From the NCBI GenBank assembly GCA_028712695.1, contig JAQTQZ010000005.1:86514-150513 (forward strand): a stretch of 64,000 nt of DNA. The letters run 5' to 3'. The notes below the pieces were generated by a model, which saw nothing but the letters and a program-made list of their open reading frames with translations, was not told where the DNA came from and ran no database searches. The stretch comes from Methylovulum sp. (GTDB lineage: Bacteria > Pseudomonadota > Gammaproteobacteria > Methylococcales > Methylomonadaceae). Shown piece after piece: positions 32,559-63,945 of the stretch (position 1 is its first letter; each line of letters begins with the position of its first letter). Made by a program: the position numbers and the translations under genes.

Positions 32559-32559
32559 T

Positions 32560-32920
32560 GTATTTCCGGATGCGTTGCTTATCAGCCAATCCCGCCAAGC
32601 CACAGCTTATTGTGATGGCAACTTTTACGCTTAACGTAACGGCCGCGTGGCTGCTTTTAAAGCATGTTCTTATCGGCCAATAAGGCCTTTGCCTCCGTCT
32701 GGGTAAACTGCAACAATTGGCGTCGACTTGTCGCGCATCACTGGCTTGGCCTGTCGTCAAGATAAAGTCTATGGGATTGTCCAACGCGTCGATGATGGCA
32801 TGGAGCTTGGTGGTTGAGCCGCCTTTTGACCGCCCCAATGCCTCTGTTTCGGACGTGCTACCGGCCGTCCCGCCTGCACCATCTGGAAAACCGCTTGGAC
32901 ACGGTGTCCCATTTGCCTAA
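32560..32920 (-). mobile_element. Degenerate IS5-family-like transposase fragment
   Basis: EALGRSKGGSTTKLHAIIDALDNPIDFILTTGQASDARQ matches the typical IS5/IS427-group transposase motif; downstream sequence is scrambled and no complete ORF remains. Confidence 0.7.
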
Positions 32921-33003
32921 GGAGGGAAACAGGCAGGCAGTTTTGCCGCCCACTCTAGGTATAAAGCAGGCGGCTTATTTGTTGTGATTAAGCCATTGGG
33001 GAT

Positions 33004-34212: not shown

Positions 34213-34355
34213 ATTGTCGGATAGGTTGGCCTTGCGGGAATGGCTAAGGCAGGTGTATGTTCCCAGTTAAACATCACGGATTTATCACGGAAATTTCAAA
34301 TAAATGTGATTTGAAAGACACCTCTAACATTGCTACCCTGTCCAATAATTTCCTC

Positions 34356-35078
34356 ATGCAAAAACTTATGAAACGTTTGTTGATTATTGAAGACGATACC
34401 GACATTGGCGATATGCTCGACATCAACCTGCGTGATGAGGGTTATAGCGTGGAGATTGTCACTGACGGCCTGATCGGTTTAGAGCGCCTGAAAGCACAGC
34501 CGTATGACTTGCTGGTGCTGGATTGGATGCTGCCCGGCCTCGACGGCTTGGAAATTTGCCGGCAAGTTCGGCAAATGCCGCATTACCAACCGATCATCAT
34601 GATTAGCGCCAAATCGGCGGAAACGCAACGGGTGTTAGGTTTGGAGCTGGGAGCGGATGATTATCTCAGCAAACCGTTCTCGATACTCGAATTGGTGGCC
34701 CGTATCCGCGCCCTGTTGCGGCGCGTGGACGCGCTGGAAAGAACGCTGCAAACCAGAACCGGCGTGTTGGTTTATGACGACTTGGTCATCGACCCGATGG
34801 CTTACGAAGTCAAGCTTAGCGGTCAAGCCATTGCCCTGACCGGCAAGGAGTTTGAGTTGCTGCTGTTTTTTGCCCGCAACCCCGGCAAAGCCTTCACGCG
34901 CATGGCCTTGCTGGATCAGGTCTGGGGTTATAGCCACGACGGCTACGAACATACGGTCAATTCCCACATCAACCGCCTGCGCAGCAAAATCGAACGTAAT
35001 ACCGCCAATCCGCAATTCATCCAAACCGTGTGGGGGATAGGCTACAAATTCACCGAGAGCGGACAGGCGGCCTTATGA
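34356..35078 (+). CDS. OmpR/PhoB-family response regulator
   Basis: LLIIEDDTDIGDMLDINLRDEGYSVE..., D in VLDWMLPGLDGLEICR, C-terminal winged helix (LTGKEFELLLFFARNPGKAFTRMALLDQVWGY). Start may be 34356 or 34368. Confidence 0.95.
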   Translation: MQKLMKRLLIIEDDTDIGDMLDINLRDEGYSVEIVTDGLIGLERLKAQPYDLLVLDWMLPGLDGLEICRQVRQMPHYQPIIMISAKSAETQRVLGLELGADDYLSKPFSILELVARIRALLRRVDALERTLQTRTGVLVYDDLVIDPMAYEVKLSGQAIALTGKEFELLLFFARNPGKAFTRMALLDQVWGYSHDGYEHTVNSHINRLRSKIERNTANPQFIQTVWGIGYKFTESGQAAL

Positions 35079-36565
35079 AATTCACTTCCCTGTACAGCCG
35101 CATCGCCCTGACTTTTGCGCTGTTGATCCTGCTGTTCGGCGGCTTATGCGGCGGTTTGGACTTTTTCGCCGCCAAACACCACCAACAGGAAATCGTCCAA
35201 AGGCTTAGTGCAGACCTTGCCAAACACATCGCCGAACATTGGCCGCTCGCCAAAGCCAATGCAGTGGACATCAATGCCGTGGGCGAGTTGTTCCACATGC
35301 TGATGGTGGTCAACCCCAGCATCGAAGTGTATCTGCTCGATGCTGGCGGCGTCATTAAAGCCCATAAAGCCCCACCCGGGCGTTTGCAAACACAGCAGGT
35401 CAATCTGGCACCTGTCCAAACGTTTCTGGACAAAAACCCCTTGCCCATCGTCGGCGACAATCCGCGTGACCCTGAGTTGCCCAGTATTTTTAGCGTCACC
35501 GATTTGCGGCAAGACGGCAAATTGGTCGGCTATTTGTATATCATCCTCACGGGTGATGATTACCAAAAATGGGAAACGGACGTGTGGCAGGGGCAAGTGT
35601 TCCAAAGCGCAATGTGGATAGGTCTGGGCGCGTTACTGCTGACTTTACTGGCAGGTTTAGGTCTGTTTGCCGTCATTACCCGCAGGCTCAATGCGCTGAC
35701 TTGTACGGTGGCGGCCTTTGAGGAAAGGGATTTTGTCGGCGGCTTGCACGTTTGCCCGAAAATCAGCAGAAGCCCCGATGAGATCGGACAATTGGCCTGT
35801 ACCTTCGAGCGCATGGCGGAGCGCATCAGCAACCAGATGCAGCACATCAGGCATCAGGACGAACAACGGCGGGAAATGATCGCCAACGTTTCCCACGACT
35901 TGCGCACGCCCTTGACGTCCATGCAAGGCTATCTGGAAACCCTGTCACGCAAGGCGGACACTTTACCGTTGGCGGACCAGCAACGTTATTTGGCGGTAGC
36001 GGTACGGCAAAGCCGGCGGGTCAGCCATTTGGCAAGCGAATTGTTTGAACTGGCAAAGCTTGAATGCGAAGAAGTCACGCCGAATTACGAATTGTTTTAT
36101 GTTCAGGAACTAATCCAAGACGTGATACAAAAATTCGCCTTGACGGCGGCAAAAAAACAAGTGCAAATCACGGCGACACTCACAGCGGATATTCCGATGG
36201 TCTATGCCGACATTGCCATGATTGAACGGGTATTGGGCAACCTAATTGACAATGCCCTACGTTATACGCCTGAAAACGGGCAGATCGCCTTGGCCCTATT
36301 ACAGACTGACCAGCAAAAAGTCACCGTGCGCGTCACCGACACCGGTGCAGGTATTGCTGAAGAATATCTGGCTGGACTGTTCGAACGCCATTCGCCGCTC
36401 CGGAGCAGTTCGGGTAAAAGTCATGGCGGTGGCGGCTTGGGGCTGCTCATTAGCAAACGCATTTTGGAACTGCATGGCAGCTCGATTGAAGCATTGAGCA
36501 GAGTAGGGGAAGGGGCCATGTTTACGTTTAACCTGCCAACCCAAGTGGCCAGCTTAGCCACTTAA
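35075..36565 (+). CDS. Sensor histidine kinase
   Basis: Two TM segments, HAMP-like region, MIANVSHDLRTPLTSMQGYLETL H-box, N-box VLGNLIDNALRYTPENG, G-box DTGAGIAEEY; ATGA overlap with the regulator. Confidence 0.95.
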   Translation: MKFTSLYSRIALTFALLILLFGGLCGGLDFFAAKHHQQEIVQRLSADLAKHIAEHWPLAKANAVDINAVGELFHMLMVVNPSIEVYLLDAGGVIKAHKAPPGRLQTQQVNLAPVQTFLDKNPLPIVGDNPRDPELPSIFSVTDLRQDGKLVGYLYIILTGDDYQKWETDVWQGQVFQSAMWIGLGALLLTLLAGLGLFAVITRRLNALTCTVAAFEERDFVGGLHVCPKISRSPDEIGQLACTFERMAERISNQMQHIRHQDEQRREMIANVSHDLRTPLTSMQGYLETLSRKADTLPLADQQRYLAVAVRQSRRVSHLASELFELAKLECEEVTPNYELFYVQELIQDVIQKFALTAAKKQVQITATLTADIPMVYADIAMIERVLGNLIDNALRYTPENGQIALALLQTDQQKVTVRVTDTGAGIAEEYLAGLFERHSPLRSSSGKSHGGGGLGLLISKRILELHGSSIEALSRVGEGAMFTFNLPTQVASLAT

Positions 36566-47872: not shown

Positions 47873-48856
47873 TCAACCGATGATGACCAGCCAATCGGTC
47901 AAATGGGTGAATTTAACGGCTAAGGTATTTTCCAAGGTCTCCAAAATATGTGCGGGATCGTGCAGGTTGATGCGGCCATTGATCTTGAATTGGCGCAGGC
48001 TGCCATCCCTAAAAATAACAACGCCGTTCCGATAACGCTGGATTTGTTCAATGACATCGGCCAGTGCCATATCCTGAAAAACAAGATAACCATCAATCCA
48101 GGAAGTGGTCAGTTTGGTATCTAACCGATTGGTTTTACTAAACCCCGCCCTATTGACCGAGACACCGTCACGGTCATGTAGCAATACCGATTCTTCGGTG
48201 CGCTCAGCGTTGCTTACCCGCACGTTGCCGGACAGCACTTTAACTTCATCGCTATTGTGTTTTTCATAGACGAAAAAGCGCGTGCCCAATACGCGGGTCG
48301 TGGAATGGTCGCCGTAAACAATAAAAGGCCGATGGGCATCGGGTTTAACATCAAAAAAGGCTTCGCCCCGCAAAAGCTCAACTGTCCGCTGCTTATCCCC
48401 CATAGCAACCTTAATGGCGCTGTTGGTGTTCAGCATCACATAAGAACCATCTTCGAGGCGTACGGTTTGTTGTTTACCTATACCGGTTGCGTAATCGGCT
48501 TGGAATAAAACCGCTATGTCCGTGCGGAACACGAAGACTAAGGCCAAACAGGCGGCCATGAGCAACGGCAATTGAAAACGGCAATGCCCCGCCCAACCTT
48601 TTTTAGTGGATGTTTTTTTTTCCGCTTCGCCCAACGCCTGCTTAAGCTGGGTATCACCCCAAAGCAGGCAGATTTCATCAAACGCTTGTTGATGGGCTGG
48701 CGTTTGCCGCAGCCAATCGGCAAACGTCGCCTTTTCTTCACGGCTGACATCACTAGCGCGCAGTCTGGCGAACCAGGCCACCGCTTGCTCATCAATCAGT
48801 TCTTCAAGCTCGGATTGGCTTGGTTGACTCTCGTTGGTTTGCTTCATAACGCTCAT
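47873..48856 (-). CDS. FecR-family anti-sigma regulator
   Basis: AVAWFARLRASDVSREEKATFADWLRQTPAHQQAFDEICLLWG, central TM, C-terminal ...INLHDPAHILETLENTLAVKFTHL. Confidence 0.95.
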   Translation of the reverse strand: MSVMKQTNESQPSQSELEELIDEQAVAWFARLRASDVSREEKATFADWLRQTPAHQQAFDEICLLWGDTQLKQALGEAEKKTSTKKGWAGHCRFQLPLLMAACLALVFVFRTDIAVLFQADYATGIGKQQTVRLEDGSYVMLNTNSAIKVAMGDKQRTVELLRGEAFFDVKPDAHRPFIVYGDHSTTRVLGTRFFVYEKHNSDEVKVLSGNVRVSNAERTEESVLLHDRDGVSVNRAGFSKTNRLDTKLTTSWIDGYLVFQDMALADVIEQIQRYRNGVVIFRDGSLRQFKINGRINLHDPAHILETLENTLAVKFTHLTDWLVIIG

Positions 48857-49017: not shown

Positions 49018-51408
49018 TTATTTACCGGGCTTTAACACCAGCTTGTGTTCGGCTTCACCTACCTGCAAACCGATAGGCAAGCCTTTCACCCAATAGCGTT
49101 GCTGATCCCGGTAATTAGGCGATAAAGGATGCGCGGATTGGCCGTCAGGCATGTGCAGTATGCCCTCGTCAAGATGGGCGGGTGACACCACCAGCCGTTC
49201 ACCCGCCCCAAAATGCGGCCCTGCAACCCGCACACACGCGCTGCAACCGGCCAGCTCATCTTCCGGCATATTCAGCAAGTAACCCAGCAATGGTAAGGAT
49301 TTGGCGAAAGGATGCGCGAATTGCGCCTTGTTGACGTTGCCCCAAGTCAGCTCCGGCAATTTTATGTCGGGATACTCCGCTTTCAGCTGTTGCGCACTGT
49401 CCGTTAACTGGCCCAGGATAAACGCATCCCAGTTTTGATAATGCAAAGGGTCTGGAAGCAGCTCCGGCAGTTTTTCCGTCAGCATGGCTTGCAAGGGCGT
49501 GTCGATATAGGTCCAGGAATACTCGAAGCCTTTATCGGCATCCTGGCAGGCGGCGACAAACGGGGTAAACACAGTTTCAGCCAGGCGCTGCCGGAACCGT
49601 TGCAACAGGGCGAATCCCAGGCTGTCCGTATCCGCCCTGCCGTTCCAGGCCAACAAATAGTCGCGCAGCTCACGCAATTCCGGTCGTTGGGCAATCCGTT
49701 CGGGCGACAGGACATTTAACGCCAACTGCTGGTAAAACGCATGGAATTCGCTTTCAGTATCCAGTTGCAAGGCAAACAGCGACCACTCGTTAATTTCCGG
49801 CATCTGCTTAAGCCGCTGGGAGATCCGGTAAGCACGGTAGCCGTTGGCGAATTGATGACCGATGAGGTAGGGATACTGTTTGCCGAGGCGGCGGTCATTG
49901 GCCGACACCAGCAGGCCTTCGGTAGGGTTGATTTGCCGTGGCAGTGCCTGCGGCTCGACATAACCGTCCCAGCCTACCGCACCGTCAGCCCAAGAGCGGC
50001 TGACCAAGCCGTCACCACCGAAGCGCTTGGGGATGCGGCCCATAACCGTCCAGGCGATACGACCGCCATCGTCGGCGACTAAAAAATTCAACTGCGGCCC
50101 GCCAGTGCGGTTAACGGTGGTCAAGGCCTGTTCCAAAGTTTCGGCTTGCTCCACATCCATTAAACCGAGGTTGACGACATCATCATCCAGCGCCGTCCAA
50201 TGCACGGCAACCGGCTTGCCTAACAAAGGGTCAGGCGCAACCGGCCCCCAAACAGTCCGCCTGACATCAAGTTGCTGCTGCCCGGCATTTTTGATGTTGA
50301 CCGTTTCAGTGCCGTGTTCAAAACGTAACCATTGATCCTTAAACCGGTATTCATCGGCGTTATCGGGGTTGATTTCAAGGCTCACCAGATCCAAGAAATC
50401 GCCGGACAAATTAGTGCTGCCCCAGGCCAGGCGCTTGGTGCTACCGGCAACCAACAACGGTACGCCCGGTAGTGTCACGCCTGCGGCATGGATGTCGCCA
50501 TAATCCAGTTCCGCCCGATACCAAACATTGGGTACGGTGATGCCCAAGTGCATGTCATTGGCTAGGATTGCCCGCCCATCCTGCGTTTTTGCGCCGCTGA
50601 CCGCCCAAGCATTGGAGCCGACGGCGAAATCCCTCAAACGCACGGCGGTCGCCAACTTTTCAGGCGTTTGGACACGCTGCTTAAGCGCTTTTTTAAGTGA
50701 TGTGACGGGAATGGCGCGGGCAGGCCGTAACGAGGGGCTGGCGTTGGTCAGGCGGTCGGTGAAATAGTCGGTGTCAGGCGTGAGGAAAGCCACAATATCT
50801 GCGGGCAGGCTTTTGTCCATGACGCTGACCATGCGCTCTTCCTGTTCCGCCCAGCCAGTCAGGATATTGAACATGCCCAGTATCACCAGCAGGCTGTCTT
50901 CAGCCCGCCACGGCGCGGGCCGGTAGTTCAGCACGGTGAACTCGAAAGGCAGCGTTTGCGCTTGTCCGATGTAACTGTTGACACCTTCCGCATACGCGTC
51001 AAGGTAGCGCCGGTGCTGTTGTGGCAGCTTTGCCAACGCGGCTTTGGCAACCCGATGGAAACCGTAAGTCCTGGCGTTGATGTCACTATTAGCGGCAACC
51101 TCGCCGAACAGTTCCGCCAGTTGTCCGGCATTTTTGCGGCGCATCAGATCCATCTGGAACAGGCGGTCACGGGCGCTGACGTAACCGAGCGCACGCACGG
51201 CGTCGGCGCGATTACGCGCAGTGATTAACGGTATGCCGTGCCGGTCGGAAGTCACCGTGACGGGCGCGGACAGCGTGCTGACGACAAACTCGCCGCTTAA
51301 CGGCGGGACAGACTGTTGCCAAACCAGCAAACAAATGCCAATGCCGGTAATTAATAAAGCCAGCAATGCAAACAATGAATAAAAAAAGACACGGCGGATT
51401 TGTTGCAT
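49018..51408 (-). CDS. Penicillin-amidase-family (Ntn hydrolase) acylase, PvdQ-like
   Basis: DRHGIPLITARNRADAVRALGYVSARDRLFQMDLMRR, autoprocessing Ser in FAVGSNAWAVSGAKTQDGRAILANDMHLG; start likely 51408. Confidence 0.9.
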   Translation of the reverse strand: MQQIRRVFFYSLFALLALLITGIGICLLVWQQSVPPLSGEFVVSTLSAPVTVTSDRHGIPLITARNRADAVRALGYVSARDRLFQMDLMRRKNAGQLAELFGEVAANSDINARTYGFHRVAKAALAKLPQQHRRYLDAYAEGVNSYIGQAQTLPFEFTVLNYRPAPWRAEDSLLVILGMFNILTGWAEQEERMVSVMDKSLPADIVAFLTPDTDYFTDRLTNASPSLRPARAIPVTSLKKALKQRVQTPEKLATAVRLRDFAVGSNAWAVSGAKTQDGRAILANDMHLGITVPNVWYRAELDYGDIHAAGVTLPGVPLLVAGSTKRLAWGSTNLSGDFLDLVSLEINPDNADEYRFKDQWLRFEHGTETVNIKNAGQQQLDVRRTVWGPVAPDPLLGKPVAVHWTALDDDVVNLGLMDVEQAETLEQALTTVNRTGGPQLNFLVADDGGRIAWTVMGRIPKRFGGDGLVSRSWADGAVGWDGYVEPQALPRQINPTEGLLVSANDRRLGKQYPYLIGHQFANGYRAYRISQRLKQMPEINEWSLFALQLDTESEFHAFYQQLALNVLSPERIAQRPELRELRDYLLAWNGRADTDSLGFALLQRFRQRLAETVFTPFVAACQDADKGFEYSWTYIDTPLQAMLTEKLPELLPDPLHYQNWDAFILGQLTDSAQQLKAEYPDIKLPELTWGNVNKAQFAHPFAKSLPLLGYLLNMPEDELAGCSACVRVAGPHFGAGERLVVSPAHLDEGILHMPDGQSAHPLSPNYRDQQRYWVKGLPIGLQVGEAEHKLVLKPGK

Positions 51409-51449
51409 AATTTTAACTGCGTTGGAACGATAAAAGGTATGGGCGTAAC

Positions 51450-53114
51450 TTACGCCACATCCCAAACCCGCGCATCGGTTTTAAGGTTAACCGCCGGATA
51501 ATCGATGGTTTTAATCTGGCCTTCCTCAAGCTTGATGCAACGGTCTGCCAAATGAAAATACCGGTCATCATGGGTGATCGCCAACACGGTTTTCCGGTTG
51601 GCTTTTAAGGCCGGCAACAATTCCGTGTAGAACAGTTCCTTAAACTCAGGATCCTGGTCGGCGGCCCATTCGTCAAACACATAAAAAGGCCGGTCTTCCA
51701 GATAAGCAACCAGCAACGCCAGACGCTTGCGCTGGCCTTGGGACAGATCCAACGTGGAAAACTTGCCATTATCAATACTGACTTTATGGCTTAAATGCAA
51801 GCGCTCCAGAAAGTCGATTGCCTGTGCATTCACTTTATCGGCATTGAAACCGAACAAATCATCAAACAAATAAAAATCTGAAAAAACCACCGAAAAATTT
51901 TGCAGGTAGGCCGCCCTATTCTCATCCGTGACCGTTTCGCCATTCAACCGGATAACGCCTTGCTCAGGACTGTAAAGCCCTATCAGCAGCATCGCCAAGG
52001 TCGTTTTACCACTGCCGTTGCCGCCGACCAAAAACACCAATTCACCCGGTTTAAACTCCAGGTTGACAGGCCCCAGCGTAAAGTTACGGTTTTCTTTTTC
52101 CCTATGGAAACTGTGCGTCAGGTTTTGTAAGGAAAGGCTGTGGAATGTTGACCACCGTTCCGGCTGCTTAACCCTATCGGCTTGCTGTATTTGCAGCCTT
52201 AAAGACGCACCCAGTTTTTCAACCTGCCGTAAAGCGATACCGGCACGGCCAAATACCGGCAGGCTATTGGTCAATACCGACAACGGCGACATCATGAATA
52301 AAAAAACCAGCGTATAACCCCGGATGACATCTTGGCTAAGGTGTTGCCAAAGCGGAAACACGCACAGGATCAAGCCAATGGTGGCGTAATACAGCAAATT
52401 CACCCATTGGCTAGACAGCATATAAAAGGTCAAACCGGACAGCGAATGGCGGCGGTAAGACTCCGCGCTGGCAGCCAACGAATGCTCCATGAAATCGCCG
52501 CTGCGGGCACTGTGTAATTTCAGCTCTTTTATGCCTTCGGTCAGTGCACGGAAACTTCTGTTCAGGTTGTCATACTCGGCGCGCGCACGTTCCATCGATT
52601 TTTTGGGTTTTTCTTTCAGCACAATAAAACTCAACACCCCAAACAGGATGATCCCGCCCAAAATCAAAGCCAACTGCCATGACAACCAGCCTAGATAAGC
52701 CATGCAACCGCTCACTACCGCCGTATTGATACATAAAACCGGCAATAGTTGGTAAGCGCCAGCAATGGCGACAATATCCTCGGTCAAGTTAGCCAACAAT
52801 GCCGGTCTGCCCAATTTCTGCAAATAAGGATAGGGGGCGGCCAAAATTAACCGGCTAATTTGTAGACGCAGCTCATAAGTGGCTTTTTCGCTGAGCCTGT
52901 TAATCAGGTAGAAAGACGACGATGCGCTCAGCAAAACCATTGCGCATAAACCGGCAAATTTCCAAAGCAATGTGGCCTGCTCGAAATGACCTGATAATGC
53001 TGAATTGATCAGGGCAATCAACGATGCGCTGCTTAAACCGCTGGCAATGCCAGCAGCTATTGCCGCAAGAAAAATAAGCCACGATGAACGCCATAAAAAA
53101 CCGAACATAGTCAT
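51450..53114 (-). CDS. Cyclic-peptide/siderophore ABC exporter (PvdE/SyrD-like)
   Basis: 554 aa, TM half plus NBD: VFLVGGNGSGKTTLAMLLIGLYSPEQG, LDLSQGQRKRLALLVAYLEDRPFYVFDEWAADQDPEFKELFYTELL. Confidence 0.93.
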   Translation of the reverse strand: MTMFGFLWRSSWLIFLAAIAAGIASGLSSASLIALINSALSGHFEQATLLWKFAGLCAMVLLSASSSFYLINRLSEKATYELRLQISRLILAAPYPYLQKLGRPALLANLTEDIVAIAGAYQLLPVLCINTAVVSGCMAYLGWLSWQLALILGGIILFGVLSFIVLKEKPKKSMERARAEYDNLNRSFRALTEGIKELKLHSARSGDFMEHSLAASAESYRRHSLSGLTFYMLSSQWVNLLYYATIGLILCVFPLWQHLSQDVIRGYTLVFLFMMSPLSVLTNSLPVFGRAGIALRQVEKLGASLRLQIQQADRVKQPERWSTFHSLSLQNLTHSFHREKENRNFTLGPVNLEFKPGELVFLVGGNGSGKTTLAMLLIGLYSPEQGVIRLNGETVTDENRAAYLQNFSVVFSDFYLFDDLFGFNADKVNAQAIDFLERLHLSHKVSIDNGKFSTLDLSQGQRKRLALLVAYLEDRPFYVFDEWAADQDPEFKELFYTELLPALKANRKTVLAITHDDRYFHLADRCIKLEEGQIKTIDYPAVNLKTDARVWDVA

Positions 53115-53608
53115 TTATTCCTTATTATATTTTCATTAAAGATGACCTCCGGGTTAAACAACGGAGAGCAAGCGTTTGGATTGATCAGACGGTTTCAAAA
53201 AACCGGAATAACCTTAGCAAAGACGCTTGAGCGCCCCATTCACCTCATCTGGCAAATGCAAGACGCCTGTGTTCGGCGGAATTGGCAACATGAATCCTAT
53301 GGAGCAGACTTTTTTCTGGAAAAAATAGGTTATTTGACACAGTGACTGCGGCAAATGGCCTAAAAAAGCGATTTGTGCCTTATTTGACTCAACTGTAGTC
53401 CCAATAATTTTGTTTTTTATAACAACTTGATATTTATCAAAAAAATTATGCAATAACCCTGTGCATGCCAATATTTTAAAACTGGTATAAGAAATGCTAT
53501 TTAGATACATATTCATTTAGATTTGGAAACCTTGCAAGCGCCCACACCACGATGAGCCTGCCGACTGTTTTAGGTGATCATCATTTATTATCAACAACGG
53601 AAGAGAAG

Positions 53609-54115
53609 ATGAGCATTACTATAGAAAACCTTTACTTAAAACATAAAAGCGAATTGGTCTATCATGTCTTCCAAATACTCCACTGCCAAGATTTGGCGGA
53701 GGAAATCGTCCAAGAAAGTTTCATCAAGTTTTCCTTAGAACTGAAAAAACAGATTGTTGAACATCCGCGTTGTTACTTGTTCCGCATCGCCAAAAACTTG
53801 GCACTTGATTACCTCAAGCACCAAAAAGTCACTGACAATTACGTACAAACCAAAGACCCGGCCCTTATGCCAGTGATGGAATCGCCCTCTCTCGAACAAC
53901 TCGCCTCAGAGCAGCAAAACTTGGATATTTTACGGAGCGTGATCGCTGAATTACCACCGCGTTGCCGCCAAGCTTTCACGCTGCATAACATCCACGGCAT
54001 GAGTTACAGTGAAATTGCCAAGGAACTGGAGATATCGGAAAGCGGCGTGGAAAAACACATCATGAAAGGCCTGCTGCATTGCCGCAAACGCATGAAAAAT
54101 TTGCTGCTGGCATAA
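53609..54115 (+). CDS. FecI-like ECF sigma factor
   Basis: LYLKHKSELVYHVFQILHCQDLAEEIVQESFIKF...ELPPRCRQAFTLHNIHGMSYSEIAKELEISESGVEKHIMKGLLHCRKRM; start likely ATG 53609. Confidence 0.93.
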   Translation: MSITIENLYLKHKSELVYHVFQILHCQDLAEEIVQESFIKFSLELKKQIVEHPRCYLFRIAKNLALDYLKHQKVTDNYVQTKDPALMPVMESPSLEQLASEQQNLDILRSVIAELPPRCRQAFTLHNIHGMSYSEIAKELEISESGVEKHIMKGLLHCRKRMKNLLLA

Positions 54116-54514: not shown

Positions 54515-55228
54515 TCACGGCAGATACGGTTGGACACAGAGCCTTTTTAACCGGACACGCGGCGGGCTGATGTCCTTCACCGTCAATGCGCCGCTCATTC
54601 CAGTCCCTAAGTCCAGATCCAGCACATGCCAGTCATGCGCCAGACCGTAGCCGTCAGGTATCGATAAAAAACGGGCGGCACCTTCGATAGACGTGACCAC
54701 TTTTGCAACGCCTAAGCTAATGCCGGCACCGACCGCCTTTACAAAACTTTCTTTCCGAACCCAGAATTGATAAAAAACAGCGGTTTTTTCCGCATCCGGC
54801 AACGCTTGCCAAAACTGCCGTTCAAGATCGGCAAAACAGGCATCGGCAATAAGGGTGCTATCGATCCTGTCATCCCAAACTTCCATATCAACCCCGACCG
54901 ACCCGCTAACACTGACCGCCACCAGCATTTTATCGCCCGAATGGGACAGATTGAAATTGACCTCATGCGGTTTGTCGTCGGCAAGGATATAAGGCTTGCC
55001 GGACGCCTCTTGTGCAAAACGGATTTTTTCCGGCCCGAGGCCGGTATAACCAGCCAATACCGTGCGCAGTTTACCGTGGCTGATGACATACTGGAGCCGA
55101 TGCTTTTTTTGCACAAACCGCTGTGCCTTGGCTTGCTCATTCTCATCGAGAAAATACCAATAATGCCGGTATTCCTCGTCACCGGCGGACAATTCTTCAA
55201 ACCATAGGTCAATGGTGTTGTAAGTCAT
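54515..55228 (-). CDS. Sfp-type 4'-phosphopantetheinyl transferase
   Basis: NFNLSHSGDKMLVAVSVSGSVGVDMEVWDDRID...FYQFWVRKESFVKAVGAGI. Confidence 0.95.
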   Translation of the reverse strand: MTYNTIDLWFEELSAGDEEYRHYWYFLDENEQAKAQRFVQKKHRLQYVISHGKLRTVLAGYTGLGPEKIRFAQEASGKPYILADDKPHEVNFNLSHSGDKMLVAVSVSGSVGVDMEVWDDRIDSTLIADACFADLERQFWQALPDAEKTAVFYQFWVRKESFVKAVGAGISLGVAKVVTSIEGAARFLSIPDGYGLAHDWHVLDLDLGTGMSGALTVKDISPPRVRLKRLCVQPYLP

Positions 55229-55258: not shown

Positions 55259-56005
55259 CTAACCTTTCCATTTTTCGATGTACGCACGGTACTTTTCTTG
55301 CCATTGTTTTGATCCGAATGCGCCGCCGCTCTGGTGGGTCAGGCCGATCGGCCAAGTGCCCAAACGTAGCCCGCATTGCCTTGCACGACGGCAGAAATCC
55401 AGATCATAAAAATGAAAGTCGAAACGTGGGTCAAAAAACACGCTGTTTGTTGTCAGGGCCGATTTTTTGGCGGCGATAAAAACGCCATCCAATAGTTCGC
55501 ACTCGGCGGGGTTAGACCCAAAAAACGTGATTTTACCTAACGCATTTTTTCCATGGGCGACCGAGCCACTAAGGTTGATGCTTTCGTCGCACTTAAAGCT
55601 GGTATAGACAAAGCATCCGGCCAAGGCACGGATCAATGAACTCCTATCCTTGCGTCCATCCGTGCCAAAGACGCTCTCCACATAACACCAGGCGGGTTGG
55701 TTCAGGACGCGACGCCGGTTGCCCGCAACCCCGATGACATCAAATTCCTGTAACCCTTCGCAGACACGATCGGCAAGAAAATCATCGTCAATCCAGACAT
55801 CGTCATGGATGAAAACGACCATCCCATTGCCGTTTTCTGCGGAAATGCACGCGTTATAAACTTCCGGGAGACCGCGCCGGTTTTCATAAGCAATATGCGC
55901 AGTCAAGCGGGCATCATGCCCAAGCCGCAGCAGAGAAATGCCTAGAGGGGATTTTTCCCAAAAGTCCTGTTCCGAGAACCGCGTTGCACTGACAATGTCT
56001 ATCAT
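55259..56005 (-). CDS. GT2/GT-A-fold-like glycosyltransferase family protein
   Basis: LPEVYNACISAENGNGMVVFIHDDVWIDDDFL, LLDGVFIAAKKSAL, FDFHFYDLDFCRRARQCGLRLG. Confidence 0.75.
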   Translation of the reverse strand: MIDIVSATRFSEQDFWEKSPLGISLLRLGHDARLTAHIAYENRRGLPEVYNACISAENGNGMVVFIHDDVWIDDDFLADRVCEGLQEFDVIGVAGNRRRVLNQPAWCYVESVFGTDGRKDRSSLIRALAGCFVYTSFKCDESINLSGSVAHGKNALGKITFFGSNPAECELLDGVFIAAKKSALTTNSVFFDPRFDFHFYDLDFCRRARQCGLRLGTWPIGLTHQSGGAFGSKQWQEKYRAYIEKWKG

Positions 56006-56026
56006 GAAATCACCCTTATGCTTAAA

Positions 56027-57379
56027 TCAGTCGAAAAGCAATAGATCGCAAGCCGCTTCAGGCTCTTTTTCCAAAGTATCCGCTAATGCGCTGGTCTGGG
56101 CGGCCGCCATCAGGTGCGGAATAAACTGGTTCATCCTTTTCGACCGGGCTTTAAATTCCGGATAAATGCCTTGCGCTTCGTTGGCTTTAACCGAATAGAA
56201 TTTCACCGCGCGGGCAAAATAGCGTGCGTAATCCGCTGGCGAAACAAAGAACGCAACCATATCCAAGTACAAATGCGGTATGCAGCTGTTAAACCATTTG
56301 TCTAGGAAATAATTGACTATATTCATAGCGACCGACTGGTTGGCGCAGGCAAATGGATGCAATTGCGCGAAACGCTGATGGAAAGCCGCCAGTGCGTAGA
56401 TAGCACCGGCTGAGCCAGCACCGCTTACTGAAGTAGGCAACGCGGCAAGCATTGCGCAAAGCTGCTCCAATTGTCCGGTAAACGGCGCGGCTGGGGGGGT
56501 GTACACCAGTTTACCGTCCCGTAACTTGCCTGCCCCCCATTTTAGCCCGCCAGTTTCCCAGCGGACTGCGAATTGTTCCCCCAAGCTGATGCCCAGCGAA
56601 TAAGCCACCATGTCCAGGTAAGCCAGAAATTCGGTAGGCAAAGCAACATGGACTTCCCCTGTCCGAAAATGTCCAGGCCAAACCGCCACATCCGAAACTT
56701 GGGAATGCGGTTTATAGAAAGAAACCAAATCTGCCCCCATCAAGCTGACCAGATGCAAGCGGCGCAACTGCGCCACCAAACTGGCCGGGTCGCCGTTGCA
56801 TCCAGATAACTCAAGCTCATCCCGCACCCCTTTCATATTTTCCCAATAAACCCGCACGATATGGTACGGGGACAGCGGGAAACGTCCTATGGATGCGCCG
56901 GGGATACCCGATTCAAGCGAATTCACGGCGGCAGGAAGGAGAATGGCGGTGCCGAGCATACCGTTAATCGTATTCAGGACCGCTTCATTATCCGCAACCT
57001 GCGTCCCCAGACGGCCTGAGTCGAGCAATTCGCCAAAGCTTGACGTGCCGTCTATCTGCTCCAAAATACGCCCAATATCCTTAGCTTGGGATTCCAGTAC
57101 GATTTCCCCTTGTTCGGACTCGACTAAGGTGTACCTGCCAATAGCCCTAACACATACCTTAAGCGCCAATTCAGGAATATCATCCAAACACAACTCGAAT
57201 CTCGGCTCGTGTATTTCAAACAACCCTTCTGCCGATGACCGCCTAGCACGCTTGGCCTGTTGTTCGGGGGCTTTATGCCAATCCAAGTATCTAAAGTAAT
57301 GCACCGGCAATTGCAGGATGCTATTTTGGTCGTTCATTTCTTCTTCCTTATGCCTTTTAAATAATATCGGCCGCAACAT
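56027..57379 (-). CDS. Protein with degenerate Fic-like motif; function unknown
   Basis: FHQRFAQLHPFACANQSVAMNIVNYFLDKWF resembles a Fic HPFxxGNGR helix with altered residues; N-terminal region IGRILEQIDGTSSFGELLDS resembles PqqD-like/winged-helix segments. Start may be downstream (MNDQNS..., 57336). Confidence 0.6.
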   Translation of the reverse strand: MLRPILFKRHKEEEMNDQNSILQLPVHYFRYLDWHKAPEQQAKRARRSSAEGLFEIHEPRFELCLDDIPELALKVCVRAIGRYTLVESEQGEIVLESQAKDIGRILEQIDGTSSFGELLDSGRLGTQVADNEAVLNTINGMLGTAILLPAAVNSLESGIPGASIGRFPLSPYHIVRVYWENMKGVRDELELSGCNGDPASLVAQLRRLHLVSLMGADLVSFYKPHSQVSDVAVWPGHFRTGEVHVALPTEFLAYLDMVAYSLGISLGEQFAVRWETGGLKWGAGKLRDGKLVYTPPAAPFTGQLEQLCAMLAALPTSVSGAGSAGAIYALAAFHQRFAQLHPFACANQSVAMNIVNYFLDKWFNSCIPHLYLDMVAFFVSPADYARYFARAVKFYSVKANEAQGIYPEFKARSKRMNQFIPHLMAAAQTSALADTLEKEPEAACDLLLFD

Positions 57380-57385
57380 GCCAAG

Positions 57386-58576
57386 CTAGCCACCAAACAG
57401 TAACGTGCCAAATTCCAAGGCCAGGTTTTTATTGCCATCGGCGGTTATCTCACCCTGTTCATAAGCGTGGATGGCGTTTTTCCGGCCTGCCAGAAGTTCG
57501 CAAAAAACGTTATAGCTTGTAGCTATTGTACAATCGCCGGACACCCCGTCATCCAGCAGGGTCAAGCCCGTAGTATCACCCTCAATCACCCAAACGCCGC
57601 CGTTAAAACCGGTTATCACGAATTTGCAAATACCCCGTAATTGCTTGGATTTATCCATTTTTTCGGCCGCGTGTTGAAAAAACTGGTTCTGAAAAAAATC
57701 ATTCAAATCCATGGCATGTGCCGTCTGGTCATCACGGTTTTGTTGTCCGGCATATAAAGCTTCTATCGATGGATACCCTAATTGCTCATGGCGTGTATTA
57801 AGCGCCCCCAGCCACTCATTTGGGATAGCCGTCAATGGGATAGCCGTACCGTTGCCGATAGAGTCGGTGTTGATTTTGCCGGAAAACCACACTTTTAGGT
57901 CGCCGTCACCCTGATCATGGGGCACTTGAAAAACCGAACCGATCAAGCTTTCGTCCCAAGGCTCGCCGAGGAAATTGAACAGTTTTTCCAGGATATGCTC
58001 CGGCTGCAAGACCAACGATTCATAATTGATCCTGATACATTGGCCGGTATGCGCCTGTTCAAACGCAATCAGCTTGCCGGTCTTCTCCAGCCAGCTATCA
58101 AGCATCGCGGCGACCAGGTTGGTCGGGTGTTTCTGTACATAAGGCGCCAATTCTGGCATATAGCCTAACGGACTGATTTTGATGCACGAATTAACAACAT
58201 CGAGGCTATTGCGGTATAAGCAGATGTATTTGGCGTGGGGAAAAACTTTTTCCAGTATCTCCAGATAATCAACATTAATGGTCGATTTTTCGCACCAATT
58301 CTGCTTGCCTTTCCCTTGTGTGTAACGGCCTAGCAAGTCATCCACCACGCGCAGGGTTTCTTCAGCCGCCCGTTTGTCCCGCTGTTCTTCAGTCACTATG
58401 TCGGGCAATTTCCCTAAGGAATAATAAGCCGTCGAATAGAGATGGGTGCATAAAGGCCCCAAGCTTAAATGGCCGGGACTGCATAAGTTGGGGTGCGTAT
58501 CGATGATGCAGCGCAGCATGGTTGAACCTGAACGGACACAGGATAAGATAAAAATCGGTTGTTTAGTCAGTTCCAT
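57386..58576 (-). CDS. Sulfotransferase-family domain fused to C-terminal SCP2-like sterol-carrier domain
   Basis: PIFILSCVRSGSTMLRCIIDTHPNLCSPGHL (PAPS-binding-like), CEKSTINVDYLEILEKVFPHAKYICLYRNSLDVVNS; C-terminus FVITGFNGGVWVIEGDTTGLTLLDDGVSGDCTIATSYNVFCELLAGRKNAIHAYEQGEITADGNKNLALEF (SCP2-like). Confidence 0.82.
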   Translation of the reverse strand: MELTKQPIFILSCVRSGSTMLRCIIDTHPNLCSPGHLSLGPLCTHLYSTAYYSLGKLPDIVTEEQRDKRAAEETLRVVDDLLGRYTQGKGKQNWCEKSTINVDYLEILEKVFPHAKYICLYRNSLDVVNSCIKISPLGYMPELAPYVQKHPTNLVAAMLDSWLEKTGKLIAFEQAHTGQCIRINYESLVLQPEHILEKLFNFLGEPWDESLIGSVFQVPHDQGDGDLKVWFSGKINTDSIGNGTAIPLTAIPNEWLGALNTRHEQLGYPSIEALYAGQQNRDDQTAHAMDLNDFFQNQFFQHAAEKMDKSKQLRGICKFVITGFNGGVWVIEGDTTGLTLLDDGVSGDCTIATSYNVFCELLAGRKNAIHAYEQGEITADGNKNLALEFGTLLFGG

Positions 58577-58642
58577 ATTGATTGCTTGTATTTGCGGTGG
58601 TTAATAGTGTCTTAGGGTGTTAGCAAACGTTGGGGTATCCGT

Positions 58643-59851
58643 TCAAACTGTCTGCCTTGCAAGCCTCGTTTTTTCCGCCTTGCGTTTCTGCCGCCAACGG
58701 ATAACGCCGGTCACATAAAGCAGCAGCGGCAGCAATCCGGTCAGCGCAATAATGATGCGCCCGACAAGCCCAAAGGCTTCGCCGCTGTGCAGCGGATAAA
58801 GCCATTGCAAAAAGACAGCGCTGGCCGAATCAGTCTTAGGATCATGTTCCCAGAGTATCTTGCCGCTATATTGGTCTAACCACAGCGCCCGCCTCGGGCG
58901 GCTTCGGTTGATTTCCTGCGCCGACCCTTTAACTATGCGGTAAACGTCCTGCCCGTCTTGCGGAAAAAAAATCCATTTATAACGGCCATCAGGGAAATGC
59001 CGGTCGGTTATCGCAGCGGCTTGCATCAAAGTGATAGGCTTTTGTGGGCCAGTTTCCGCCGAAACCGGACTTGGCGGTTCTGGAGACGGCAGCGAAAACA
59101 CGTTGACCAAACCATCCACATACTCAGGGAACACCATTTCGATACCCGATACCAGCACCACCAGCAACACAATAGCGCCATAAAAGCCGGATGTTTTGTG
59201 CAAATCAAAGTTGAAGCGTTCGGTACTGGCATTGCGTTTAATGGTCAAAGCCTGCCGAATCTTGCCCGGATGCGGCCACCAAACGATCAGCCCGGTCAAC
59301 ACCGAAAACAACAGAAACAACGCGACGATGCCGATAAACATTTTGCCCGCTTCACCTAGCGCCAGCGTGTAATGGAAGCGCACGACAAAATTCACCAGAC
59401 TGCCCCGCCAAGGGTTGCCGGTGTCAAACATCAGGCGCTGCCCCAAAACACCACCGGTGTAAGGATTGACATGCACCAGATTCCATTCGCTGTGTTCCGG
59501 CGTTTGTGCTGGCAAGCTGTAGGTGATGGCAAACGCCTCGTCCGGCGAGCTGGGAAACACAAAGGCGTAGGGTTTGCCCTGCGTGGGGATGACTGACCGG
59601 GCCGCTGCGGCAATCTCATCTAAAGGCCGGTAAACCGTGTGTGCAGGGTAATCCTGGATTTTTTTAAGCGCCGGATTCAGCGCGGAATCGATTTCCGGCC
59701 CGAAGACCGACAAGCTGCCTGCCAAGCCAATCAGCACAAACACCGCACCGGCGAACAGGCCAATATAAAGGTGCGCTTTCAACCACAGCTTACGGCGGTT
59801 TTTTAAGTTCAGTAATGGGTTGTTAGCAGGTTTTCCAAGCATTACCAACAC
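58643..59851 (-). CDS. PepSY-associated TM helix protein (siderophore/iron-uptake associated)
   Basis: RKLWLKAHLYIGLFAGAVFVLIGLAGSLSVFGPEID..., NFVVRFHYTLALGEAGKMFIGIVALFLLFSVLTGLIVWWPH, FNFDLHKTSGFYGAIVLLVVLVSG. Confidence 0.9.
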   Translation of the reverse strand: MLVMLGKPANNPLLNLKNRRKLWLKAHLYIGLFAGAVFVLIGLAGSLSVFGPEIDSALNPALKKIQDYPAHTVYRPLDEIAAAARSVIPTQGKPYAFVFPSSPDEAFAITYSLPAQTPEHSEWNLVHVNPYTGGVLGQRLMFDTGNPWRGSLVNFVVRFHYTLALGEAGKMFIGIVALFLLFSVLTGLIVWWPHPGKIRQALTIKRNASTERFNFDLHKTSGFYGAIVLLVVLVSGIEMVFPEYVDGLVNVFSLPSPEPPSPVSAETGPQKPITLMQAAAITDRHFPDGRYKWIFFPQDGQDVYRIVKGSAQEINRSRPRRALWLDQYSGKILWEHDPKTDSASAVFLQWLYPLHSGEAFGLVGRIIIALTGLLPLLLYVTGVIRWRQKRKAEKTRLARQTV

Positions 59852-59862
59852 ACCTAATTAAG

Positions 59863-61293
59863 TTACAGCCCGACCGCTTCATGCAAATCAATCAACGCAT
59901 ACTGCCGGTTTAAACAGTAGATTAAAATCAGGAATTGCGCTTCGGTCAGCGCTACGCCCTGATCCTGAAAAATCGAGAACACGGCTGTTAACGTCCGTTC
60001 GCCATCCATCAACGCAAACAGGGATTCCAGCAACAGCGCCATCTCCGCTGGGACGGCAATGAACTTGCCCATGACATTAAGCCACCATAGCTCGCCCTGA
60101 AGCTGGTCGTTTAACGGTCTTTTTTGAAAAAATCCGACACCACGGCCTTCAACAATGCGGGGAATTTCATGCCAAACAGCGGCATTCTTGGTAAAAAACC
60201 GGCTGATCGGCTTGGGTTCGGGGATTTGCATAAGCGCTGCGCTTTTCCGCAAGGTAAAAAAATGCACCACATCGTCGACATTATCGGTTTCGGCATCAAT
60301 AGTCGCCAAATTGAACGGCGTAAACCGCTGGCAACTCATATCCTCGACAACAAAACCCAACTTGTTGAAGTAATCCGGCAATTCAGCGAGGCGATACCGA
60401 CCCAACTCTGCGGGTTCCTGCACGCTGAACGGCTTGGAAAAATTGATCCACACACCACTGGGTTTCAGCACCCGATATATTTCTTGGGAAAACAGTTCGG
60501 CATTGCTGACAATATCAAGCAAATACTGGGTGATGACTAACGATAAGGTTCCGCTTTTAAACGGTAAGGCCATCACATCGGCGGTGATAAACTGTATGTC
60601 GTTTGCCGCTGAGGTAGGTGGTGCTACGGTCACTTCCTGCCAATCCGCCTCTTTCAATTGAAAGCTTAAAGGTGTCCCTTCGATAAGGGTTTTAGCCATC
60701 AACAAGCCTGGCAACGACAAATCGACACCGTAAGATTTCTGAAAATGGTTGGCAACACTGTAGAGCAATCCACACGCACCTGCGCCCAGCACCGCCGCAT
60801 TGCCCTTGTCTTGGCAATGCGCAGTGGCTGTCTGGCAAATCAGGTTTTTGACGGCTTCGTAATCGGCCACGCCGCACCAGTCCTGGTAAAAATACGGCAG
60901 CATGTGATCGCCGGTATAACCGGATTTCAACGGGTTCGCCGCAAAACCGCCCGCATCGCAGGGATGGTTTTGCACAAAATCGGCAATAGGCTGGTAGACC
61001 GCTTCCAAAAACGTCAGGTTTGCAGACATGCCGCTTTGGTTGCGGGCAATTCTTGTCGCCAAAGCGCTGGCACCTGTGGTTTCAGCAGCCGTCAAACTTG
61101 TGCTTATGGCGCTGAATTCGGCTTTAGTGTCGTCGATTTCCCTAAGATATGCCGGTAAAGCGGACAGCGCATCGGGAAGGATAAACACATCAACGCCATT
61201 GATGGACGGATACTGTTTGCCGCAATCCGCACAAACCCATAAATCCGGCGGGGAATCGGTCAAATCGCCATGGCAGGCAAGACAATAAAGCAT
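59863..61293 (-). CDS. SAM-dependent methyltransferase with N-terminal zinc ribbon
   Basis: CLACHGDLTDSPPDLWVCADCGKQYPSINGVDVF (CxxC...CxxC), AVLGAGACGLLYSVANHFQKSYGVDLS, ITADVMALPFKSGTLSLVITQYLLDIV, EIYRVLKPSGVWINFSKPF. Confidence 0.8.
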   Translation of the reverse strand: MLYCLACHGDLTDSPPDLWVCADCGKQYPSINGVDVFILPDALSALPAYLREIDDTKAEFSAISTSLTAAETTGASALATRIARNQSGMSANLTFLEAVYQPIADFVQNHPCDAGGFAANPLKSGYTGDHMLPYFYQDWCGVADYEAVKNLICQTATAHCQDKGNAAVLGAGACGLLYSVANHFQKSYGVDLSLPGLLMAKTLIEGTPLSFQLKEADWQEVTVAPPTSAANDIQFITADVMALPFKSGTLSLVITQYLLDIVSNAELFSQEIYRVLKPSGVWINFSKPFSVQEPAELGRYRLAELPDYFNKLGFVVEDMSCQRFTPFNLATIDAETDNVDDVVHFFTLRKSAALMQIPEPKPISRFFTKNAAVWHEIPRIVEGRGVGFFQKRPLNDQLQGELWWLNVMGKFIAVPAEMALLLESLFALMDGERTLTAVFSIFQDQGVALTEAQFLILIYCLNRQYALIDLHEAVGL

Positions 61294-61398: not shown

Positions 61399-63945
61399 TT
61401 AGAATTCCACCTTGACCGAACCCATAAATGTACGCGGCGCACCTGGAATGACAGAATTGCTGTTAAACGGCGAACTCGCTGCGTAGTAGCGATGATCCAA
61501 TAGGTTTTCGATATTGAATTGCAAGGTGGTTTTTGCTTTCGCCACTGGCAACTGGTATTTCACTAAAGCATCTACCCTGCCATAACCGGGCAATTGATAA
61601 TCGTTGGTGATGTCCCCTTGCCGCTGATCTTGGAAATACGCCCCCGCACCGACACTCAAACCGCGCAGCACGGCTTGTTGCAGATCGTACTTGAGCCACA
61701 GGCTACCGGCGTTTCTGGGCACGTCCCAAAGCCGTTTGCCAACATCGCTATCACTGCCTTCAGCGCCTTTTGTAACCACCGCATCGGTATAAGCGTAACT
61801 GGCAATCATGCTGAGGCCATCGGTTATCTGTCCGCTCATGTCGATTTCCACACCTTGACTACGCGCTTCACCGATGGCTCTCGAATAATTCCTGTTAGTC
61901 ACACTATCGTAAGCACCAACAGCCAAATTTTTCTTGGTCAATTGGTAAAAAGCCACACTGGACGTCAAGCGGCCGTCAAAAAACGAGGTTTTGAAACCCG
62001 CCTCATACTGTTCCCCTATTTCCGGCGGCAGGAGGTTATTGTAAAGGTTGGTGCTATTGTTCAAAGCCCCCATCGATTCTACATAATTGCCGTATAGCGA
62101 TAACCAATCCCAAGCTTGGTAAAGCAAGCCAACTCTAGGGTTAAACCGCTCATTATCAAGTTGAGGCCGGTTGGTGGCTGCCTCAGCCGCCGTGAGGCCA
62201 TAGCCATTGATCTGGGTTGCCCAGTCGTAACGGCCGCCGCCCAAGATATGCAGTTTTTCAAACAAAATGATCTGGTCTTGGAAAATAATGCCGTTCGAAT
62301 TGCTGCCATTATTGTTGTTAAAATCATGGTTAGCCGGATCGGCGTAAATTTGCGCTATGTTCGACGGATTGTATTGCGGATTGTAAACATTGATGCCGTT
62401 AACAGTGCCCTGAAAAAAATACCCATAAGCATTATCACGCGTGCTGTCGCCGCTGTAATGTTCCCAACCGACCAATACATCGTGTTCAACATCCAAAGTT
62501 TTAAAATGGCCGGTCAGGTTTACCGTGCCATGATAAGTATCGCTGACCCCTTTCGTTCCGTAAAAGAACCTCAGCATGTCGCCGCCGACCTCATCGAAAC
62601 CAAATGGCGGTGGGGCGGTTTGTTGGTCCAGCACATCCCTAGTGAAATAGTTAAACCTGGCACGCACTTTCCAATCATCTGTGAACGCATGGGCCAGAGT
62701 GATGGCAGTGTTAGTAAGCGAGGTGTTGGTCTTATCCGTGGAGGGTTCACCCAAATACCGCGAGATAGGGATATTGATCGGGCGATGGGTTGTTATGGTG
62801 TCGGCCGGTATGCCCCAGTCCTCTTGGGTATCTTCGTCAGAATACAGAAAATCCAGGTCGATTTGGGTGCGGTCGCCAATCTTCCACGTTACGGAAGGCG
62901 CAAGAAAGACCCTATCCGTGAAGCCATAATCGCGGAAAGAACGTTTATTGAGCGATTCCAGATTAACCCGGTACATCAGCGAACCGTCGGCATTGATTGC
63001 GCCGGTGGCATCAGCCGTGGTGCGGTAAAGGTCAAAAGAACCGAATTGCTGTTCCAACGCATAATAAGGGGTGGCTTGTGGCCGTTTGGTGACGACATTA
63101 ATCAAGCCGCCAGGTTCGATACGGCCGTAAAGGTTGGCGGCAGCGCCCTTGACCACTTCAATACGCTCGGCATTGGCGAGCGAGATACGGCTGACCGGGA
63201 AGCTGAAGCCATCGACATAATTGTTATATTGGGTGTTGAAGCCACGGATCATGAATTGTTCGGCAAAACCACCCAAGCTGAAGCCTTGAAACACGCCACT
63301 GACATTTTTGATGGCATCGCCGACCTGGACGGCTTGCTGGTCTTGTATGACCGCCCTAGGTACGACTTGGACGGAAATAGGCGTTTCCATGATCGGCGTG
63401 TCGGTTTTGGTCGCCGACGAGGCATTGCTGCGGTTATAACTGGTGTTGTACGGCGTGTCTTCGCTTTCATCCAAACCGGCGGCGGTGACTTTCACTGGTT
63501 TTAGCGTAGGCGAATCGGCATTGGTTTCTGGGCTGGCTGCTTTGGGCGTCCCAGTTTCGGTCTGCAACGCAATGACATTATCATCCGCAAACCGGTAAGC
63601 GATGGGTGAGCGCCCCAACAGTTTATCCAACGCCTGCTTCGGCGTATAAGTGCCAGACAACGGTTGGCTTTGGACACCTTTGACCAATTGCGCCGGATAG
63701 CTCAACTGGATGTCAGTGGTTTCTGAAAAGGCCAGCAATGCCGAAGACATATCCTTGGCGGGGATATTGAATTTAAACGTTTTCCCATCCGGTTCTGCAA
63801 ATCCGGGTGCCGAATTAACCATCGACAACATAAAAATGCTTATTGCCAAAGGTGTTTTTCTCAGATTTGGTCCGGCGTCCATCCCAGATAACGCTTTCCG
63901 TTTCCGCAAGGCCACCACCCTATTTCTAATAACCGTGTGTTTCAT
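61399..63945 (-). CDS. TonB-dependent siderophore receptor with N-terminal STN signalling domain
   Basis: Signal-like N-terminus, STN (FNIPAKDMSSALLAFSETTDIQLSYPAQLVKGVQSQPLSGTYTPKQALDKLLGRSPIAYRFADDNVIAL), plug TPIMETPISVQVVPRAVIQDQQAVQVGDAIKNVSGVF, terminal F. Confidence 0.96.
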   Translation of the reverse strand: MKHTVIRNRVVALRKRKALSGMDAGPNLRKTPLAISIFMLSMVNSAPGFAEPDGKTFKFNIPAKDMSSALLAFSETTDIQLSYPAQLVKGVQSQPLSGTYTPKQALDKLLGRSPIAYRFADDNVIALQTETGTPKAASPETNADSPTLKPVKVTAAGLDESEDTPYNTSYNRSNASSATKTDTPIMETPISVQVVPRAVIQDQQAVQVGDAIKNVSGVFQGFSLGGFAEQFMIRGFNTQYNNYVDGFSFPVSRISLANAERIEVVKGAAANLYGRIEPGGLINVVTKRPQATPYYALEQQFGSFDLYRTTADATGAINADGSLMYRVNLESLNKRSFRDYGFTDRVFLAPSVTWKIGDRTQIDLDFLYSDEDTQEDWGIPADTITTHRPINIPISRYLGEPSTDKTNTSLTNTAITLAHAFTDDWKVRARFNYFTRDVLDQQTAPPPFGFDEVGGDMLRFFYGTKGVSDTYHGTVNLTGHFKTLDVEHDVLVGWEHYSGDSTRDNAYGYFFQGTVNGINVYNPQYNPSNIAQIYADPANHDFNNNNGSNSNGIIFQDQIILFEKLHILGGGRYDWATQINGYGLTAAEAATNRPQLDNERFNPRVGLLYQAWDWLSLYGNYVESMGALNNSTNLYNNLLPPEIGEQYEAGFKTSFFDGRLTSSVAFYQLTKKNLAVGAYDSVTNRNYSRAIGEARSQGVEIDMSGQITDGLSMIASYAYTDAVVTKGAEGSDSDVGKRLWDVPRNAGSLWLKYDLQQAVLRGLSVGAGAYFQDQRQGDITNDYQLPGYGRVDALVKYQLPVAKAKTTLQFNIENLLDHRYYAASSPFNSNSVIPGAPRTFMGSVKVEF

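Follow-up and report, generated by a model that had tools for sequence, protein, structure and literature searches.

The pyoverdine pathways of Pseudomonas combine an acyl-loading first module, a PvdE-like exporter, a PvdQ-like acylase, an extracytoplasmic function (ECF) sigma factor, a receptor, and a PepSY protein, and pyoverdine clusters also carry chromophore-tailoring genes. Apart from the last, the same functions were found in a 64,000-nucleotide stretch from Methylovulum sp. (GenBank assembly GCA_028712695.1, contig JAQTQZ010000005.1, positions 86,514 to 150,513), referred to as the window, where a nonribosomal peptide synthetase (NRPS) cluster includes a five-gene interval at 55259-61293. 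The interval encodes a glycosyltransferase family 2 (GT2)-like protein, a degenerate Fic-like protein, a sulfotransferase fused to an SCP2 domain, a PepSY-TM protein, and a zinc-ribbon methyltransferase. For methanobactin, a metal-scavenging peptide of methanotrophs, a sulfotransferase gene has been described: MbnS is encoded in the operon, and threonine is sulfonated in Methylocystis methanobactins (PMC3621798). Of the N. oceani strains, AFC132 carries an NRPS cluster for a siderophore, and the others keep the receptor and PepSY genes that go with it (PMC7285500); the sulfotransferase of that paper belongs to a polysaccharide locus and is hence no precedent. A survey of methanotroph metabolites mentions NRPS in generic terms only (PMC11964084), and no paper was found for "sulfated siderophore" in the open-access collection searched.

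Content of the interval across relatives

The interval is best read as a lineage-variable decoration slot of a siderophore-type cluster and not as a stand-alone four-gene system. Its reproducible parts are the sulfotransferase-SCP2 fusion and the zinc-ribbon methyltransferase, and the GT2-like and Fic-like genes are lineage-specific additions seen in this cluster only. We consider it reasonably probable that enzymes encoded in this slot sulfate and N-methylate a lipidated siderophore. The observations behind this proposal are the cluster context, the recurrence of the two enzymes, their conserved PAPS, SAM, and zinc residues, and an APS kinase in the genome.

The five open reading frames (ORFs) all lie on the minus strand, with a 4'-phosphopantetheinyl transferase (PPTase) gene on one side and a TonB-dependent receptor gene on the other, and are separated by gaps of 21, 6, 66, and 11 bp. 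Both the ORF map and Pfam agreed with an earlier, sequence-only reading on this arrangement and on the families named, but that reading had also described the interval as having no counterpart in known siderophore pathways. To find relatives, 251 genomes of the order were searched with a joined query of the Fic-like, methyltransferase, sulfotransferase, and CmlA proteins, and the neighbourhoods were then read. Since two candidates were scored per genome, the resulting counts are lower bounds: the sulfotransferase-SCP2 family was recovered in 23 other genomes and the methyltransferase in eight, nearly all in homologous NRPS clusters, so that the interval does have counterparts. Siderophore-type genes (receptor, PepSY, NRPS, PvdE, PvdQ, CmlA, FecR, sigma factor, or PPTase homologs) lay within 10 kb in 22 of the 23 sulfotransferase genomes, the remaining copy being on a 3.7-kb contig (L224), and in seven of the eight methyltransferase genomes, the remaining copy being at a contig end.

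The same slot holds other tailoring genes in other genomes. That of G880 contains a NodU-type carbamoyltransferase and a UDP-glycosyltransferase (L188:1547-3547 and 3670-5037), and a UDP-glycosyltransferase is also present in the slot of G034. A Sulfotransfer_1 protein occupies the slot of G877 (G881 has a similar one), G917 has a Sulfotransfer_4 protein there, and Cupin_8 proteins are present in G837 and, by similarity, in G918. ORFs of comparable length (666-667 aa) lie on L200, L195, and L226.

The sequence-only reading had offered, as one option, that the four genes other than PepSY form a separate modification system that arrived together, which would then simply have landed between the PPTase and the receptor. 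The single strand, the very short gaps, and the like base composition (GC 0.48-0.52) fit such a system. However, that composition also matches the adjoining PPTase and receptor genes and is therefore no sign of a recent joint arrival. No other genome was found to hold all four families; only the sulfotransferase and the methyltransferase were paired, in G860, and each otherwise occurs independently of the other in homologous NRPS clusters. The relatives of the GT2-like gene lie away from such clusters, the best 80 of its 124 loci have none of the other genes nearby, and no search gave a full-length relative of the Fic-like protein. A failure of the four genes to co-occur elsewhere had been named beforehand as one half of what would refute the proposal, and this is the result obtained for the four-gene version. 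We regard a co-inherited system as highly improbable. The companion claim, that the genes tailor the peptide, is supported: they are non-universal tailoring genes of a siderophore-type cluster, and sulfation and methylation are the probable modifications.

Sulfotransferase-SCP2 fusion and zinc-ribbon methyltransferase

The 3'-phosphoadenosine 5'-phosphosulfate (PAPS)-type sulfotransferase with its fused C-terminal SCP2 domain is encoded at 57386-58576 (minus strand, 396 aa), and Pfam placed Sulfotransfer_3 (99 bits) and SCP2 (41 bits) within one frame. The SCP2 domain was present in all five divergent family members scanned. Each cluster contains one to three paralogs, which form two clades. 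In an alignment of 28 rows, residues R15, S16, G17, S18, T19, E96-K97, R122, D126, and S130 each reached a conservation of 90% or more. Among these are the 5'-phosphosulfate-binding loop (R15-T19) and the 3'-phosphate residues R122 and S130, which places the protein among the PAPS sulfotransferases, and the conservation of the PAPS site argues that the enzyme is active. A family profile at E ≤ 1e-30 found no other member in 194 class-wide genomes, a sample with few relatives. Plasmid searches with all four proteins gave generic sulfotransferases at most, and neither phage searches nor scans of viral contigs with the sulfotransferase and the methyltransferase gave a match.

A source of PAPS is encoded in the same genome, outside the interval, by an adenosine 5'-phosphosulfate (APS) kinase gene (224 bits). 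In G832, an APS kinase (L208:2083-2838) lies inside the slot of a siderophore NRPS cluster, beside two sulfotransferase-SCP2 genes. This embedded kinase is the strongest argument from sequence that the family would carry out real sulfation. The sulfate acceptor is probably a serine, a threonine, or a β-hydroxyl group. SCP2 domains bind lipids, and since the peptide is predicted to be acylated, the domain probably holds the acyl tail and positions the lipidated precursor before PvdQ removes the tail.

By profile, the nearest solved structures were CurM and protein-tyrosine sulfotransferases for the N-terminal part and SCP2 proteins for the C-terminus. The top rank of CurM (4gbm, 4gox) raises the alternative that the enzyme, like the CurM/olefin-synthase domains, sulfates a carrier-bound β-hydroxyl group for elimination and that the end product is free of sulfate; a β-hydroxylase gene indeed accompanies the sulfotransferase gene in many clusters. 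However, the CurM/olefin-synthase domains are part of an assembly line and lead to decarboxylation, whereas the enzyme studied here is a separate protein and carries an SCP2 domain, which the CurM architecture is not known to include. Moreover, no CmlA turned up in the stretches sampled from the sulfotransferase-bearing clusters of G935, G930, and G046, and up to three sulfotransferases per cluster fit several sulfation sites better than a single elimination step. We therefore judge the elimination reading unlikely and retain sulfation of the siderophore.

The methyltransferase (59863-61293, minus strand, 476 aa) consists of a Trm112-like zinc ribbon with a CxxC...CxxC pattern at residues 4-24, a class I methyltransferase domain (Methyltransf_11, 42.5 bits), and a C-terminal helical region of about 110 aa. 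The four zinc-ribbon cysteines and the S-adenosylmethionine (SAM) motif were invariant among its relatives, and a Trm112 match was obtained for two of the eight. Seven of the eight members matched the OvoA C-terminal model (histidine N1-methyltransferase) and six the carnosine N-methyltransferase model; the carnosine enzyme was also the best solved relative of the family profile in the PDB. These were the best specific matches of the family, and both enzymes act on an imidazole ring. The methyltransferase studied here scores below the curated cut-offs of both models and differs from these enzymes in its Trm112-like zinc ribbon and its additional C-terminal sequence. An imidazole N-methyltransferase role is thus possibly indicated, as a suggestive, sub-threshold hint. 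A PqqD-like peptide-recognition (RRE) module shared by the C-terminus of the methyltransferase and the N-terminus of the Fic-like protein was considered, but the hhalign probability between the two proteins was below 2% and Pfam gave no PqqD match; single-sequence AlphaFold models were unreliable (predicted local distance difference test, pLDDT, 35 for the methyltransferase and 36 for the Fic-like protein).

GT2-like and Fic-like genes

The Fic-like protein is encoded at 56027-57379 (minus strand, 450 aa). Its Fic domain (PF02661) scored 27.6 bits against a cut-off of 24, but the motif HPFACANQS replaces HPFx[D/E]GNGR, and with the loss of the acidic residue and of GR the protein was not classed as an AMP-transferase. 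Its N-terminal 280 aa or so match nothing known, and the ORF may begin at an internal ATG near 57337, with AAGGAAG just before it. No full-length relative was found among 60 near relatives, 369 genomes of the class, 301 genomes of the order, or plasmids. The 399 genomes of the phylum gave marginal Fic-domain matches and again no full-length relative; the 85,000-species collection lay outside these searches. A match on a viral contig (L004) was dismissed as chance because it covered a short stretch of a phage tail-region protein. A defence-system role was likewise dropped, since PADLOC scored Fic at 10.5 bits and its sole methyltransferase match was generic and weak (mad2, 22.6 bits).

The GT2/StrF-like gene (55259-56005, minus strand, 248 aa) scored 25.5 bits for Glyco_tranf_2_5 against a cut-off of 27 and is therefore called GT2-like; the motif HDDVWIDD is conserved. 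Among the best 80 of 124 loci in the 85,000-species collection, its relatives were 39-63% identical, the closest being in other phyla, and no Fic-like, sulfotransferase, PepSY, or methyltransferase gene was found in the fetched flanks of these 80. Relatives inside the order sit away from NRPS clusters. An in-frame insertion of 72 bp (24 residues) at 55604-55675 is missing from the aligned homologs and carries a 9-bp inverted repeat (GGCACGGAT/ATCCGTGCC); it is single copy in the genome and not a repeated element. Environmental virus contigs often carry members of the HDDVWIDD GT2-like family (161 matches, L005-L086), and in L005 and L006, for example, the viral genes adjoin recombinase, queC-like, and helicase genes.

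Both genes may add a further group to the siderophore or be inert. That they are non-functional passengers inserted in the operon, leaving the product unmodified, is suggested by their restriction to this cluster, the 24-residue insertion in the GT2-like protein, and the loss of catalytic residues from the Fic motif. Their frames are nevertheless fully open, with short gaps and a composition like that of the neighbouring genes, so that no sign of decay was seen, and we put the passenger reading at slightly less than even. A bolder proposal seems unlikely to us: that the order makes lipidated, sulfated, imidazole-N-methylated, His-rich siderophores with an SCP2-fused sulfotransferase family, and that a Fic fold without AMP-transfer residues was recruited here for a novel step acting on that molecule, either a transfer or a binding one.

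Host cluster, predicted product, and described systems

By its sequence, the host cluster is of an acylated His/Ser/Thr NRPS siderophore type that is widespread in the same gammaproteobacterial order. Its synthetases, all on the minus strand, are built from condensation (C), adenylation (A), thiolation (T), epimerization (E), and thioesterase (TE) domains. NRPS2 (23611-28959) has an acyl-loading AMP-binding domain followed by T-C-A(His)-T; the first of its two AMP-binding stretches precedes any C domain, as in an acyl-loading start module. NRPS1 (10607-21700) reads C-A(His)-T-E-C-A(Ser)-T-C-A(Thr)-T, and NRPS3 (3-10610, 4896 aa, extending past the left window edge) reads C-A(His)-T-C-A(Thr)-T-C-A(Ser)-T-C-A(Orn-like)-T-TE-TE. 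An assembly line without a thioesterase, considered at one point, was wrong, since NRPS3 ends in this tandem TE. The codes thus comprise three His in total, and the last one of NRPS3, DVGELCSID, is ornithine-like. They were read against a reference domain whose own known code was recovered as a check, and the amino acids given are predictions from such codes. His codes were present in most homologous clusters checked, including most of the methyltransferase-bearing clusters read.

A CmlA-type diiron β-hydroxylase gene, identified by homology (21857-23464, minus strand), lies between NRPS1 and NRPS2; in G862, a class III aminotransferase (L212:10920-12398) between CmlA and NRPS2 hints at a different non-proteinogenic residue. 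The stretch from the NRPS genes to the transporter block includes, at 30525-36565, genes for a DUF3999 protein, for a DUF7482 protein, and for a two-component regulator/kinase pair. This block contains a FecR-type anti-sigma factor found by homology (47873-48856, minus strand), a PvdQ-like penicillin amidase (deacylase; 49018-51465, minus strand; PF01804, 550 bits), a PvdE-like cyclic-peptide/siderophore export ABC transporter (51450-53114, minus strand; TIGR01194, 460 bits), and a FecI-type ECF sigma factor found by profile match (53552-54115, plus strand). The PPTase gene follows at 54515-55228 (minus strand, Pfam) and the TonB-dependent siderophore receptor gene at 61399-63945 (minus strand; TIGR01783, 351 bits). 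With exporter, deacylase, receptor, and ECF sigma factor/FecR all present, the cluster is of the PvdE/PvdQ type. The right window edge is the contig end (150513), 55 bp past the receptor start, so the region upstream of the receptor is unreadable. Within the interval, the PepSY-TM protein (58643-59851, minus strand, 402 aa; PepSY_TM, 227 bits) is likely an inner-membrane ferric-siderophore reductase or a receptor companion; its gene adjoins the receptor in most relatives, in line with the sequence-only reading, which had named it as the expected member.

In the proposed pathway, the assembly line would load a fatty acid and then build the peptide, and the CmlA-type enzyme would β-hydroxylate a carrier-bound residue, probably His, to provide iron ligands. 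No ornithine/lysine N-oxygenase (PF13434) scored over the cut-off in the whole genome; hydroxamates are therefore unlikely, β-hydroxy-His is the best ligand candidate, and the cluster was not classed as a pyoverdine cluster. The sulfotransferase would pass sulfate from PAPS to a peptide hydroxyl (Ser, Thr, or β-OH), probably with the SCP2 domain gripping the acyl tail, and the zinc-ribbon methyltransferase would methylate a ring nitrogen of His. The PvdE-like transporter would export the peptide, the PvdQ-like enzyme would deacylate it, and the TonB-dependent receptor would reimport it, with iron being removed with the help of the PepSY protein.

Several points weigh against this pathway. The role of iron as the bound metal is putative, and so are both modifications, sulfation and methylation; the sites of the two modifications and the part played by SCP2 are predictions, as is all of the chemistry. 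Without an N-oxygenase over the cut-off, the ligand set is incomplete unless β-hydroxy-His fills the gap, and the residue codes depend on the reference domain used to read them. The OvoA model (TIGR04345) scored 32 bits against a cut-off of 170 and the carnosine-methyltransferase model 20.5 against 27, and both matches could reflect general methyltransferase kinship. The genome counts rest on the scoring of two candidates in each genome, and since the sulfotransferase and the methyltransferase co-occur in only one other genome, neither requires the other.

Taken with the interchangeable sulfo-, carbamoyl-, glycosyl-, and methyltransferases at this one position of the cluster, the recurrence of the sulfotransferase-SCP2 fusion predicts siderophores that form a family, negatively charged and each with its own decoration, and such decoration could alter solubility or confine uptake to matching receptors. 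Unlike the pyoverdine pathways, this cluster has the CmlA-type hydroxylase and three His modules and is without an ornithine N-oxygenase over the cut-off, and the sulfotransferase-SCP2, zinc-ribbon methyltransferase, GT2-like, and Fic-like genes take the place of the chromophore-tailoring genes. Nod factors offer a further likeness, as lipidated oligomers with sulfo- and carbamoyltransferases (NodH/NoeE and NodU), given a weak NoeE match and the NodU-type gene of G880; the scaffold and the enzyme subfamilies differ, and this is an analogy only. While MbnS belongs to PF00685 and serves a ribosomal copper peptide in Methylocystis, the sulfotransferase described here belongs to PF13469, is fused to SCP2, and is found in gammaproteobacterial NRPS clusters.

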